From NCBI RefSeq assembly GCF_009762795.1, contig NZ_CP046400.1:1837501-1901500 (forward strand): a stretch of 64,000 nucleotides of DNA. Direction: 5' to 3'. Positions 9,915-13,100 of the stretch are shown here, in pieces. The position numbers were made by a program, and so were the translations under genes. Positions within the stretch are counted from its first letter, which is position 1. Each line of letters opens with the position of its first letter. Below the pieces are notes generated by a model. It saw nothing but the letters and a program-made list of their open reading frames with translations. It did not search any database and had not been told where the DNA came from. This DNA comes from Pseudodesulfovibrio cashew. Lineage in GTDB: Bacteria > Desulfobacterota > Desulfovibrionia > Desulfovibrionales > Desulfovibrionaceae.

Positions 9915-10184
9915 TCAGCCCGGGAATTCGTGCACCCTGATCTTGTGGCTGCGCGGAAACTCTCGTTTGAGCAAGGTCCTGAGCAGCCGTTTCAGTTCCT
10001 TGTGCCCGCTTTTGAACCGCTCCTGCCGGAAGCCGTCTTCGATCACGGCATAGGTTTCCACGTCCTCCTTCATGATTATCACGGAACGGTCGCGCTTGTA
10101 GGTGCGCAGGTCCAGCCCCGCTCCCACCGGGAGCTTTTTCAGCCGCGTCAGTATCAGCGGGATCGCGCCCGCCTTGTCGATCAC
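9915..10184 (-). CDS. Unrecognised 89-residue basic protein, paralogue A
   Basis: I do not recognise this family. The protein is basic and soluble, with conserved segments RLKKLPVGAGLDLRTYKRDRSV, an acidic middle, and LKRLLRTLLKREFPRSHKIRVHEF. It is a clear paralogue of the gene directly upstream (same length, same blocks in the same order), so the pair arose by tandem duplication. The start is a GTG at 10184 with AAAGGA seven bases upstream, overlapping the upstream gene's TGA (GTGA). The phrase LDLRTYKRDRSV in both copies suggests a nucleic-acid or nucleotide-binding surface, which is inference only. Confidence 0.72.
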   Translation of the reverse strand: MIDKAGAIPLILTRLKKLPVGAGLDLRTYKRDRSVIIMKEDVETYAVIEDGFRQERFKSGHKELKRLLRTLLKREFPRSHKIRVHEFPG

Positions 10185-10498
10185 AGCGTTTTCCTTTGCA
10201 GGTGGATATCGGCGGAATATTCGCCAAGGTCATAGAGTCGTATTTTGGTGGAGCGGGGAAACTCCCGTTTCATCAGCATCTTGAGCAGTTTTTTCAGCTT
10301 GTCGCGGGAGACGAGAAAGCGAGCCTCCTCGAAACCTCTCTCCACCACGTCGAATTCGTCATTGCCCACACGCGCGATGAGCACCGAGCGGTTCCGCTTG
10401 TATGTGCGCAGGTCGATGGCGTGCCCTGTGGGCAGCTTTTTCAGCCGATTCATGATAGTGGTAATGGCGGTGGCCTTGTCGATCATGCAGTTAACCAT
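10181..10498 (-). CDS. Unrecognised ~100-residue basic protein, paralogue B
   Basis: Upstream partner of the previous gene, sharing MIDKA, a MNRLKKLPTG/LDLRTYKRNRSVLI block and KLLKMLMKREFPRSTKIRLYD. It has a C-terminal extension (GEYSADIHLQRKTL) the other copy lacks. The long reading begins at 10498; the alignment with paralogue A favours the internal ATG at 10486 (MIDKATAIT). Neither start has a strong ribosome site. The pair is divergent from rlmD (81 bp between starts) and convergent with the XRE gene via its partner. No signal peptide, membrane helix or enzyme motif is visible. Confidence 0.7.
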   Translation of the reverse strand: MVNCMIDKATAITTIMNRLKKLPTGHAIDLRTYKRNRSVLIARVGNDEFDVVERGFEEARFLVSRDKLKKLLKMLMKREFPRSTKIRLYDLGEYSADIHLQRKTL

Positions 10499-10579: not shown

Positions 10580-11962
10580 ATGCCCCTTGAAAAAGACAGC
10601 ACCATACAATGTGAAATAGAATCTCTGGCCTACGGCGGACGCGGCGTGGCGCGCGTGGACGGCATGGCCGTATTCGTAGCGGGCGGCCTGCCCGGCGATG
10701 TGGTCAGGGCACGTGTGGTCAAGGCCAAGAAGCGGTTCGCCGAGGCCGTGACCGAAGAGGTCGTCACCCCGTCGCCCAAGCGCGTCGAGCCTGCCTGTCC
10801 CCATTTCGGGGTTTGCGGCGGCTGCGCCGTGCAGGATCTGGAATACGCGGAACAACTCGCCCAGAAGAACGGTCAGGTGGAGAACGCGTTGCGTCGCATC
10901 GGCGGCGTGGAGACTCCGGTCATGGACGCTCCTGTGGCATCGCCCGCCATCTACCGCTACCGCAACAAGATGGAGTTCGCTTTCGAAGGGCGCGACGGAG
11001 AGCTGTTCCTCGGTCTGCGAGCCAACCCGGAGCCCGGCGAGCGAATCGGGCAGGTTCTCGATTTGACTGAGTGCCACCTCTGCGCGGTGCGAGACATGGA
11101 GATGGTGCACTTCGTGCGCGACTTCTGCCGCGAATCCAACGTTGCTGCCTATCATCCGCCCACGGACACCGGCTTCTGGCGGCACCTTGTCCTCCGCCAC
11201 ACTTCCATCGGCCAGGTTCAGGTCCATCTGATCACCACTGCGGACGAGCGCAAGTACAATCTGCCCGAGGAATTGGGCGAGGCGCTGATCGACCGCTTCC
11301 CGGAGATCATGTCTTTTGTCCACTCCCTCCGCACCAAGCGTTCGACCGTCGCCTACGGCGAGCAGGCCATCTTCCGCCTGGGCCACAAGTTCGTGGAGGA
11401 GCGGCTGCCCAAGGGCGAGTCCATGGTGCGCTATCACCTCGCGCCCAATACCTTTTTCCAGACCAACACCGGGGGCGCGGCCGAACTCTTCGCCACCGTG
11501 GCAGAATACGCCGCCCTTACCGGTCACGAGACCGTCCTCGACCTTTACTGCGGGGCCGGTGCCATCGGCATCTATCTCGCCGACCAGGCCGGACAGGTCA
11601 TCGGCTACGAGATCAACGAGGAGGCCATCGGCAAGGCATGGGCCTCTGCCAAACTGAACCGCATCAACAATTGCGAATTTCACGCGCTCTCCCTCGAATC
11701 CGGCATCGAGGGCGTGGATGATCTGCCCACCCCGGACGTGGTTGTGATCGATCCGCCCCGGTCCGGCATTCAGGAGAAGACCGCCGAGTCCTTGCTGCGG
11801 CTGGCGCCGCCGCGCATCGTGGCTGTTTCGTGCGATCCGACCACGCTCGCGCGCGATGTGAAGCGGTTGTCCGGCAAGTATGCGCTCGAGCGCGTTCGGG
11901 CCGTGGATATGTTTCCGCATACACATCATGTGGAGACGGTGGCCCTGCTGGTTAAGAAGTAG
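10580..11962 (+). CDS. rlmD: 23S rRNA (uracil-5) methyltransferase, RlmD/RumA type
   Basis: Iron-sulfur SAM-dependent methyltransferase forming m5U in 23S rRNA (U1939 in E. coli). The ATG at 10580 gives 460 residues. In order: a TRAM domain (IESLAYGGRGVARVDG), a [4Fe-4S] site with Cys73-x5-Cys79-x2-Cys82 and a fourth Cys near 165, the substrate region NTFFQTN, the SAM motif VLDLYCGAGAIGIYLA (about 319-334), IDPPRSG and the catalytic VSCDPTTLARD with Cys418. A longer in-frame ORF reaching back to 10196 overlaps the divergent paralogue genes and is not supported. Its probable terminator has been split by the insertion at 12000-13081. Confidence 0.93.
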   Translation: MPLEKDSTIQCEIESLAYGGRGVARVDGMAVFVAGGLPGDVVRARVVKAKKRFAEAVTEEVVTPSPKRVEPACPHFGVCGGCAVQDLEYAEQLAQKNGQVENALRRIGGVETPVMDAPVASPAIYRYRNKMEFAFEGRDGELFLGLRANPEPGERIGQVLDLTECHLCAVRDMEMVHFVRDFCRESNVAAYHPPTDTGFWRHLVLRHTSIGQVQVHLITTADERKYNLPEELGEALIDRFPEIMSFVHSLRTKRSTVAYGEQAIFRLGHKFVEERLPKGESMVRYHLAPNTFFQTNTGGAAELFATVAEYAALTGHETVLDLYCGAGAIGIYLADQAGQVIGYEINEEAIGKAWASAKLNRINNCEFHALSLESGIEGVDDLPTPDVVVIDPPRSGIQEKTAESLLRLAPPRIVAVSCDPTTLARDVKRLSGKYALERVRAVDMFPHTHHVETVALLVKK

Positions 11963-12008
11963 GGTGCCTGACGGCGTCTTGAAGAGAAAAGGAAGGCCGC
12001 CCTTATGG

Positions 12009-12031
12009 CAAGACGTTTTCCATAAATGTTG
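12009..12031 (+). repeat. Left terminal inverted repeat (23 bp)
   Basis: Starts CAAGACGTTTTCC and ends ATAAATGTTG; it is the exact reverse complement of 13050-13072. The match stops immediately at both ends, at the 9-bp direct repeat outside and at unrelated sequence inside. Confidence 0.9.
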
Positions 12032-12058
12032 ACGAAAACACTGTAAATTAATCGTAAC

Positions 12059-12084
12059 CCCCTGTTCGCTTTGGCGAACAGGGG
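12059..12084 (+). terminator. Perfect 11-bp hairpin just inside the left end of the insertion
   Basis: CCCCTGTTCGC (12059-12069) pairs fully with GCGAACAGGGG (12074-12084) around a TTTG loop, then ATTCTTCTT. It may now terminate rlmD transcription or shield the cargo genes from read-through. Confidence 0.6.
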
Positions 12085-12196
12085 ATTCTTCTTATGGGTA
12101 AAATATTTTCCCAGGTTGCCTAATTCGGCGCATTATTTTCTCGATGAAATGGTAATCACACTACTTCCGATTAGTTGCAATAATTGAGAATAGTTC

Positions 12197-12224
12197 TTGA
12201 CTTTTTTTGAGAATATGTTATAAT
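12197..12224 (+). promoter_or_regulatory. Strong sigma-70 promoter of the insertion cargo
   Basis: TTGACT (12197-12202) and a consensus TATAAT (12219-12224) are 16 bp apart, 50 bp before the first cargo gene. The A/T-rich setting and near-perfect hexamers make it one of the best promoters in the window. An inverted ATATGT/ACATAT pair overlaps the -10 and could be an operator. Confidence 0.75.
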
Positions 12225-12274
12225 ACATATTCAAGTCCGATATGGATTTAGATCGATTTTACAAGGTGGATTTT

Positions 12275-12499
12275 ATGAGTAATTTTAAGTTTTCTTTTAA
12301 CCAAACAAATGAAGGAGACCTCTTCCCCCATGCTAAATGCATGCGGTGCGGCGAGGATCATGTTTTTGGCGTCCTTGACGACGACCCAACGTTCTCGGAT
12401 AGAATCAATTATTCTGTTAATTGCAGAAAATGCAACGCCGTAGGCGAAGCCATCTATAAAAAAGTAGATGGTGAATGGACCTTTAACCCCTGCGAATAG
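12275..12499 (+). CDS. Cargo gene 1: 74-residue zinc-ribbon-like protein
   Basis: I do not recognise a family. The protein has two CxxC knuckles, CMRC (about residues 22-25) and CRKC (about 51-54), a usual zinc-ribbon arrangement, linked by an acidic stretch (FGVLDDDPTFSDRINYSVN). The ATG at 12275 is chosen because AAGGTGG stands five bases upstream; a start at 12242 would lack one. It is AT-richer than the surrounding genes, sits behind a strong promoter and is followed by its own terminator. No secretion signal is present. A role as an adaptor or nucleic-acid-binding protein is only inference. Confidence 0.72.
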   Translation: MSNFKFSFNQTNEGDLFPHAKCMRCGEDHVFGVLDDDPTFSDRINYSVNCRKCNAVGEAIYKKVDGEWTFNPCE

Positions 12500-12519
12500 C
12501 ACTTTTCCTCTCCTTCATT

Positions 12520-12545
12520 AGCCCCCCCCATCGGGGGCTTTCATT
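12520..12545 (+). terminator. Terminator after cargo gene 1
   Basis: AGCCCCC (12520-12526) pairs with GGGGGCT (12533-12539) and is followed by TTCATTT; it lies 20 bp past the stop. Confidence 0.8.
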
Positions 12546-12638
12546 TATCGCGCACTATTTTGAAATCGTTTGCCATCGGATGACATGCGCCCTGCTTTGC
12601 GGCATAGTCACGCCAAAATATATAGCGAGGTTGCCGTC

Positions 12639-12965
12639 ATGGATTTGAAGGAATTTGTCGCCGAGTCGCTGAAACAAATTATTGATGGAATAAAAGAGGC
12701 CCAAGAATATGCTTCCCAAAATGGTGGGGTGGTCGCCCCATCCTATAACAATTTTACAGGGAGACAGGGATCCGAAGGCCATAAGCAAAGCGTATTGCTT
12801 GATGTGGCTGTGACCACCCAGGAGAGCAAAGGGCAGGAAGGTCGAGCTGGTTTGAAAATTCCTTTCCTTGATGCCGGGGGGACACTCTCTGCAGATCAAG
12901 TCAATTCGACAGTATCCAGAATCAAGTTCGCTGTTCCCGTTGAGTACCCTGTTCAAAAAGACTGA
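12639..12965 (+). CDS. Cargo gene 2: 108-residue protein, possibly trypco2-like
   Basis: The ATG at 12639 has GCGAGG eight bases upstream. The product starts with an amphipathic helix (MDLKEFVAESLKQIIDGIKEAQE), followed by a glycine/serine-rich linker and a beta-rich second half: SVLLDVAVTTQES, then STVSRIKFAVPVEYP at the end. From memory this helix plus DVAVT plus SRIKFxVPV pattern matches the trypsin-co-occurring domain 2 (trypco2) family, small proteins reported in predicted conflict systems; I could not check this. No partner protease or NTPase is present in the insertion. It has its own terminator downstream. Confidence 0.7.
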   Translation: MDLKEFVAESLKQIIDGIKEAQEYASQNGGVVAPSYNNFTGRQGSEGHKQSVLLDVAVTTQESKGQEGRAGLKIPFLDAGGTLSADQVNSTVSRIKFAVPVEYPVQKD

Positions 12966-13017
12966 CAGCATTTCATCCACCTACTGTCAAAGAACGTCAC
13001 CTCGGTGAAGCACAACG

Positions 13018-13047
13018 AAAAGCCTCCGAGTTTCTGGGGGCTTTTTT
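13018..13047 (+). terminator. Terminator after cargo gene 2
   Basis: AAAAGCCTCC (13018-13027) pairs with GGGGGCTTTT (13036-13045, one mismatch) over an 8-base loop, ending in TTTTTT. It lies just inside the right inverted repeat. Confidence 0.85.
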
Positions 13048-13049
13048 CC

Positions 13050-13072
13050 CAACATTTATGGAAAACGTCTTG
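13050..13072 (-). repeat. Right terminal inverted repeat (23 bp)
   Basis: Exact reverse complement of 12009-12031, followed at once by the CCCTTATGG direct repeat and then by GGCGGCTTTTTT, the right half of the interrupted hairpin. Confidence 0.9.
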
Positions 13073-13100
13073 CCCTTATGGGGCGGCTTTTTTCATGGGA

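Follow-up and report, generated by a model that had tools for sequence, protein, structure and literature searches.

In the window, i.e., the whole 64,000-nucleotide stretch of Pseudodesulfovibrio cashew DNA that was analysed, the gene rlmD is followed by an element that interrupts the intrinsic terminator of this gene. The element is bounded by perfect inverted repeats (TIRs; 23/23 bp identical; not matched at up to three mismatches in 100 shuffles) and flanked by a 9-bp target duplication (TSD), and it encloses two cargo genes and no transposase, only a nine-codon remnant of such a gene (Table 1). Its GC content of 43.7%, against about 60% in the flanks, is the lowest among the 1,064-bp stretches of the window. 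The repeats and the duplication claimed in the first-pass annotation proved correct letter by letter, the consensus promoter, two genes and two terminators that it described were all found within the element, and no transposase is encoded there; its inventory of parts was nevertheless incomplete, since a third hairpin (12059-12084) and the transposase remnant had been overlooked. Upstream of rlmD, two adjacent paralogous open reading frames lie on the minus strand (9915-10184 and 10181-10498, about 89 and 105 aa); they share the motif LKKLPxGxxxDLRTYKRxRSVxI and are probably a tandem duplication.

Table 1. Features of the element and of the interrupted rlmD terminator (window coordinates).
Feature	Position	Strand	Remarks
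rlmD, host gene (23S rRNA m5U methyltransferase family)	10580..11962	+	owner of the target terminator
Left arm of the split rlmD intrinsic terminator	11995..12002	+	GGCCGCCC
Left TSD copy, 9 bp	12000..12008	.	CCCTTATGG; spans the rlmD terminator apex; read from sequence, congeners also with 9-bp TSDs
Left TIR, 23 bp	12009..12031	+	
Left-end leader hairpin	12056..12087	+	core stem 12059-12084; covaries across 15 elements
Transposase gene remnant	12094..12123	+	nine codons (MGKIFSQVA), then TAA; equals the start of L026, one residue off L025 (MGKIFPQVA)
Cargo gene 1 promoter	12197..12224	+	TTGACT-N16-TATAAT, extended -10; conserved in the G033 element
Cargo gene 1	12275..12499	+	74-aa protein, two CxxC pairs, zinc-ribbon-like
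Cargo gene 1 terminator	12520..12539	+	
Cargo gene 2 weak promoter-like site	12580..12608	+	ATGACA-N17-CATAGT; stretch conserved 5' of the G005 homologue (match 579-707)
Cargo gene 2	12639..12965	+	108-aa trypco2-like protein
Right-end terminator hairpin	13018..13047	+	hairpin at about 13020-13047; adjoins right TIR; in 11/11 elements compared
Right TIR, 23 bp	13050..13072	-	
Right TSD copy, 9 bp	13073..13081	.	CCCTTATGG
Right arm and T-tract of the split rlmD terminator	13080..13093	+	GGGGCGGC

Removal of the insert and of one TSD copy, which had been claimed to restore the hairpin, indeed yields a whole terminator, AAGGCCGCCCTTATGGGGCGGCTTTTTT (MFE -21.5 kcal/mol, z -3.8). The search for the empty site in relatives, a check named beforehand, showed that none of the 29 readable orthologous rlmD loci of congeners contains an insertion or a TIR within 400 bp downstream of the gene. 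Congeneric empty-site terminators are not strictly orthologous in sequence; the nearest one, in G020 (L159), is near-identical (GGAAGGCCGCCTGGAGACAGGCGGCTTTTTTT) and unbroken. Because all 29 loci are empty and the G020 terminator is whole, the comparison identifies the rlmD terminator as the insertion target and the insertion as specific to the window lineage.

The 3.91-Mb genome contains three matches to the TIR at up to three mismatches: both ends of the element and C1:1903227, a divergent, unpaired end of the same type located 1.7 kb past the window. A search for further copies of the 23-bp ends, proposed with the initial description, was rewarded with matches at the same threshold in 24 of the 36 genomes of the genus Pseudodesulfovibrio, while a DNA search of 24 genomes from other genera returned none. 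Sixteen TIR pairs with a 9-bp TSD could be delimited; they span 229 bp to 5.7 kb and differ in duplications and contents, the two TSD copies being identical or one mismatch apart in 13 pairs and two mismatches apart in three. Two elements are full-length: L025 in G007 (5.7 kb) encodes a transposase with a Dam-type methylase and an AlwI-type endonuclease, and L026 in G001 (4.05 kb) a transposase with a Dcm-type methylase and an NgoMIV-type endonuclease. Both transposases have 590 aa and start 85 bp inside the left end, and the TIRs are one base off those of the window element. A transposase is also present in G016, where the flanking contigs L032 and L034 share the nine bases CCGCGAGGA.

Of the 247 genomes of the order, five contain the transposase gene, which in one case is a fragment; no homologue was found in the 3.9-Mb genome of the window itself. 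The prediction of a transposase with the same ends in the same genome thus failed; the broader idea of movement in trans holds in outline, as autonomous relatives combine matching ends with a transposase, though none resides in this genome. The claim of mobility gains strong support from the comparison, the same TIRs enclosing other cargo at other sites with their own TSDs in congeners, and the 29 rlmD loci being without insertion. The window element has transposon-type inverted repeats, a target duplication, passenger genes in place of the transposase and autonomous relatives with matching ends, i.e., the features of a mobile insertion cassette (MIC). Since its own genome lacks such a transposase, we regard it as a non-autonomous cargo element that is presently stranded or was mobilised elsewhere.

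Two further kinds of copies were noticed in the genus. In G008, MITE-like derivatives of 256-258 bp (L084, L085, L086, L088 and L092) have the same TIRs, and some of them are flanked by perfect 9-bp TSDs. In at least ten Pseudodesulfovibrio species an unpaired right end, composed of terminator and TIR, occupies one conserved site with the flank CCGCGAAGACTAAACA...CTGTTTTCAGC (G000:C1:1903227, which is L024:4228, and L029, L030, L038, L040, L099, L100, L103, L105 and L107). A search for the left partner of these orphan ends found none, and an Rfam search of the site returned no family; such an end may have been domesticated as a terminator or may be left over from an old insertion that decayed.

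Six non-autonomous elements from different genomes are near-identical through the nine-codon remnant and diverge directly after it; on this alignment they are, therefore, internal-replacement derivatives of the autonomous element. The left ~112 bp probably represent the end that is required in cis. This stretch contains the leader hairpin, the 3′ arm of which holds a Shine-Dalgarno-like AGGGG nine bases ahead of the transposase ATG and which is followed by a U-rich tail. Among 15 left ends, 7 of 14 base pairs show double-sided change, and 15 covarying cells were counted against 3.7 in shuffles (0/500), a signal that is destroyed by sliding the arms. The hairpin fits a terminator-like pattern as well (tail TTCTTCTT), and an Rfam search of the window element returned no family. 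Its retention in copies devoid of transposase suggests a job beyond the transposase or a part in the cis-recognised end. At the other end, a terminator hairpin with a T-run lies directly at the right TIR in all 11 elements compared.

The transposase itself is difficult to place. Its N-terminal part matches IS1/IS1595- and IS256-type zinc-binding domain models (NF050000, NF048018) near the cut-off, and none of the profiles searched matched over the full length. The IS1 transposase model NF033558 scored 33.3 bits against a cut-off of 100 and covered residues 120-197 only, which leaves the protein outside IS1, and Pfam profiles of IS256 and prokaryotic Mutator-like transposases gave no match. A PDB sequence search found zinc fingers only. 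The 8-9-bp duplication and the terminal C of the TIR are traits shared with IS256/Mutator-like elements; this base is C in the Gram-negative branch and T in the Gram-positive branch. All 15 transposase relatives compared keep D222 and E524, D382 is almost invariant among them, and the AlphaFold model (pLDDT 80.7, pTM 0.83) has an RNase-H-type core. The best solved structural neighbours are the transposase of ISCth4 (IS256 family; E 6e-4 to 1.5e-3) and piggyBac, with weak overall similarity. The protein is filed here as a DDE transposase outside the assigned families. Relatives are spread over Gammaproteobacteria, Betaproteobacteria, Geobacter, Nitrospirae and further groups, and the protein encoded beside dfrG in Enterococcus and Staphylococcus plasmids is a homologue (tblastn: 97% coverage, 23% identity, E 4e-25); the element on these plasmids is Tn7491. 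The characters of the Tn7491-type family are present, namely a homologous transposase in the autonomous partner, TIRs of 20-27 bp and a 9-bp TSD. The family is widespread and largely unnoticed. One 2-kb transposase-only copy lies in a terminator on a conjugative P. aeruginosa plasmid (L138; CP136985), within a few kb of a class 1 integron.

Recognisable defence genes are carried by 7 of about 11 cargo-bearing transposase relatives: AlwI- and NgoMIV-type restriction-modification (R-M) systems, a type IIG enzyme with specificity subunit, a type IIG-like enzyme, an EcoRI-type methylase with a GmrSD/HNH nuclease, an ApeA-like HEPN protein and an HsdR-like protein; dfrG is also found as cargo. In the Halodesulfovibrio element the ApeA/HEPN-like gene occupies L119:9826-11532, and the target duplication is apparently 10 bp long. 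Neither PADLOC nor PHROG nor Pfam assigned a firm function to the two window cargo genes. The product of cargo gene 2 matches the trypco2 model PF19631 with 14.8-16.2 bits (E 0.012-0.034), below the cut-off of 24.2; one homologue carries the annotation 'trypco2 family protein', and relatives are present in phages. Because the delimited transposase-bearing relatives mostly carry defence genes, defence is the likeliest role of the window cargo, and these weak sub-cut-off domain matches, together with the analogy, suggest that the zinc-ribbon and trypco2-like proteins are probably defence-related. Another accessory function, e.g., a part played by the zinc-ribbon protein in metal or redox handling, is less probable: the family also transports dfrG (Tn7491) and Thiogranum genes without a known defence role, and both window proteins are without firm family assignment, yet the prevalence of defence genes among the relatives and the phage-borne, trypco2-like nature of cargo 2 argue against it.

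It may also be asked whether the cassette is a dead relic with decaying passengers that have no selected function. The lack of a transposase in the genome and the small open reading frames without confident family would agree with this, whereas the perfect TIRs, the intact TSD and two intact reading frames with promoter, ribosome-binding site and terminator would not. An independent element in G033 contains homologues of both cargo genes in the same order, with protein identities of 32% (gene 1) and 59% (gene 2), and 15 of the 297 genomes of the class contain homologues of cargo gene 2, so that decay appears improbable. As the first-pass annotation inferred, the cargo may be beneficial. Cargo gene 2 is also found within a G008 element, and the fourth copy, in G005, adjoins phage-like genes and is not part of a recognised element. 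Cargo gene 1 in G012 adjoins a gene for a Toprim-domain replication protein and a pentapeptide-repeat gene, the latter being the cargo of elements in G006 and G025. Both cargo families were thus also found beside prophage- or satellite-like genes. Transposon cargo genes near such genes, some with conserved upstream DNA, were observed at L044:3306-4486 and L045:5325-5678.

The first-pass annotation regarded the terminator loop as a safe landing place, which understates what the family does. Terminator statistics were collected for 11 larger Pseudodesulfovibrio insertions with empty sites rebuilt in silico. These sites are intrinsic terminators nearly throughout, with the duplicated nine bases across the loop, e.g., GACCGCCTGAAAGGCGGTC (G007), GGCCCGCTTGAGCGGGCC (G031) and CCCCGGTCATCGACCGGGGC (G033). 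In 10 of the 11, the middle of a strong hairpin lies no more than 1 bp from that of the TSD, as compared to 0.81% of 20,000 random intergenic positions of the same genus (binomial 1e-20). Distant relatives in Thiogranum, the P. aeruginosa plasmid and Pontibacillus (AAAAAAGCAAAGGGGCCCTTTGCTTTTTT) also reside in terminators, and likewise those in Halodesulfovibrio, Geobacter OR-1 and Paraburkholderia, where duplications are one base longer or imperfect. About nine distinct sites of the dfrG transposon comprise five textbook terminators, three imperfect ones and one without a terminator; Tn7491 was seen repeatedly inside intrinsic terminators (L180-L190, L139 and L140). Weaker hairpins were found at the 256-258-bp MITEs of G008, and weaker or no hairpins at three other distant insertions.

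A genuine transposon might land at random and persist only at harmless intergenic spots, the terminator site being a matter of survivorship. Terminators are harmless, and the MITEs and one dfrG site do not lie at strong hairpins, which is what such survivorship would allow; however, it predicts intergenic positions in general, not TSDs within 1 bp of an apex, and the apex pattern recurs in Bacillota. Because the TSDs centre on the hairpin apex, intergenic survivorship is insufficient, and we consider it very unlikely; as judged from these comparisons, the location of the window element is not incidental and the family homes to terminator apices. Two resident genes might also be flanked by chance by a 23-bp hairpin or repeat unit that is common between genes. 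Unpaired copies (including the right end conserved at one locus in at least ten congeners) and the 257-bp MITE-like pairs of G008 do exist, but this reading was rejected as hardly credible, since the genome of 3.9 Mb has just two full matches and one divergent match, the pairs are bounded by site-unique TSDs and enclose transposases in relatives, and neither the repeat nor an insertion is present within 400 bp at any of the 29 congeneric rlmD loci. The sequence at 12009-13072 is accordingly read as a genuine transposon.

Taken together, we propose, with a probability of roughly 88%, that the window element is a non-autonomous MIC of a widespread family, the zinc-ribbon/DDE transposase of which (590-650 aa) prefers the apices of intrinsic (rho-independent) terminators and generates a 9-bp duplication. 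The comparison shows that the element arose from an autonomous one by losing the transposase body; what it has kept on the left is about 112 bp with the TIR, the leader hairpin and the nine transposase codons, and on the right the terminator and TIR, with promoter-gene-terminator cassettes in between. It would then have been transposed in trans by the enzyme of a full-length relative, now absent from its genome. The terminator target and the end hairpins would insulate host and element in both directions and leave neighbouring genes unbroken. The left hairpin would hide the ribosome-binding site of the transposase, so that read-through transcripts could not be translated into transposase, and may stop incoming transcription, while the right terminator would stop outgoing transcription and replace the terminator lost by the host gene. 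The two cargo genes may form a module for phage conflict, comparable to the R-M and abortive-infection genes of the full-length relatives.

The transposase-less cargo cassette is, as a general kind, already known. MIC231 of Bacillus cereus and mic-qnrD are transposase-less passengers bounded by inverted repeats and flanked by TSDs, thought to be mobilised in trans by the transposase of a full-length relative (PMC3913671). The window element resembles them in all these structural respects; it differs in the transposase family, in its homing to terminator apices, in the retention of a regulatory leader with the first transposase codons and in what are probably conflict genes. Tn7491, first seen in Tn6198, is a dfrG transposon of 3.3 kb from Staphylococcus, Enterococcus and Listeria; its published TIRs measure 27 bp and its target duplication 9 bp (PMC10763498). 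It shares with the window family a homologous transposase, 24-27-bp TIRs, the 9-bp TSD and many sites that are intrinsic terminators, a targeting of which its description (PMC10763498) makes no mention. Unlike the window element, it is autonomous and Gram-positive, with the TIR TAAGTAGTTCAGTTTTGGAG, an extra small open reading frame before the transposase and resistance cargo.

Insertion into terminator hairpins and cargo are also known from IS1272/TnSha1 (IS1182 family), which targets stem-loops and terminators and carries sh-fabI; there the insertion is blunt, with partial stem deletion and no duplication (PMC4923244). These elements are unrelated and contain their transposase, and the 9-bp duplications throughout the window family place it outside this group. 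IS1397, ISPsy8 and ISPa11 use DNA palindromes, namely sequence-specific REP families, as transposition targets (PMC1525189), whereas the window family hits the apices of sequence-unrelated terminators. To IS1/IS1595 and IS256/prokaryotic Mutator-like elements (PMC3942029) it is similar in the N-terminal zinc-binding domain, the 8-9-bp duplications and the nearest fold (ISCth4); it differs in the length of the transposase (590-650 aa), which has no full-length match, and in terminator targeting, which is not described for these elements. The literature searched, subscription titles being outside its scope, contained no description of an insertion at terminator apices with a 9-bp duplication; the nearest precedent is IS1272/TnSha1. 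What is new in this family is that it targets terminator apices while duplicating 9 bp, has a leader that covaries, carries defence cargo and is linked to Tn7491.

We consider it likely, if less certain than the reading of the window element, that across several Gram-negative phyla and Bacillota, with Tn7491 included, this family is directed by its transposase to terminator apices as a sequence-independent safe harbour for defence or resistance cargo, with transposase-less cargo platforms as its satellites. What does the enzyme read? Candidate cues are extruded cruciform DNA, bent A/T-flanked palindromes or the termination complex, and the family makes recognition of cruciform DNA versus the termination complex testable. 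For annotation it offers a simple rule, to look for split terminators, together with a terminator-targeting transposase family to test. If the proposal is true, a structural sign, the terminator, and not a sequence would be the target, which would give such transposons unlimited harmless sites in any bacterium and would help to account for the spread of R-M, abortive-infection and trimethoprim-resistance genes in the form of small neutral insertions.
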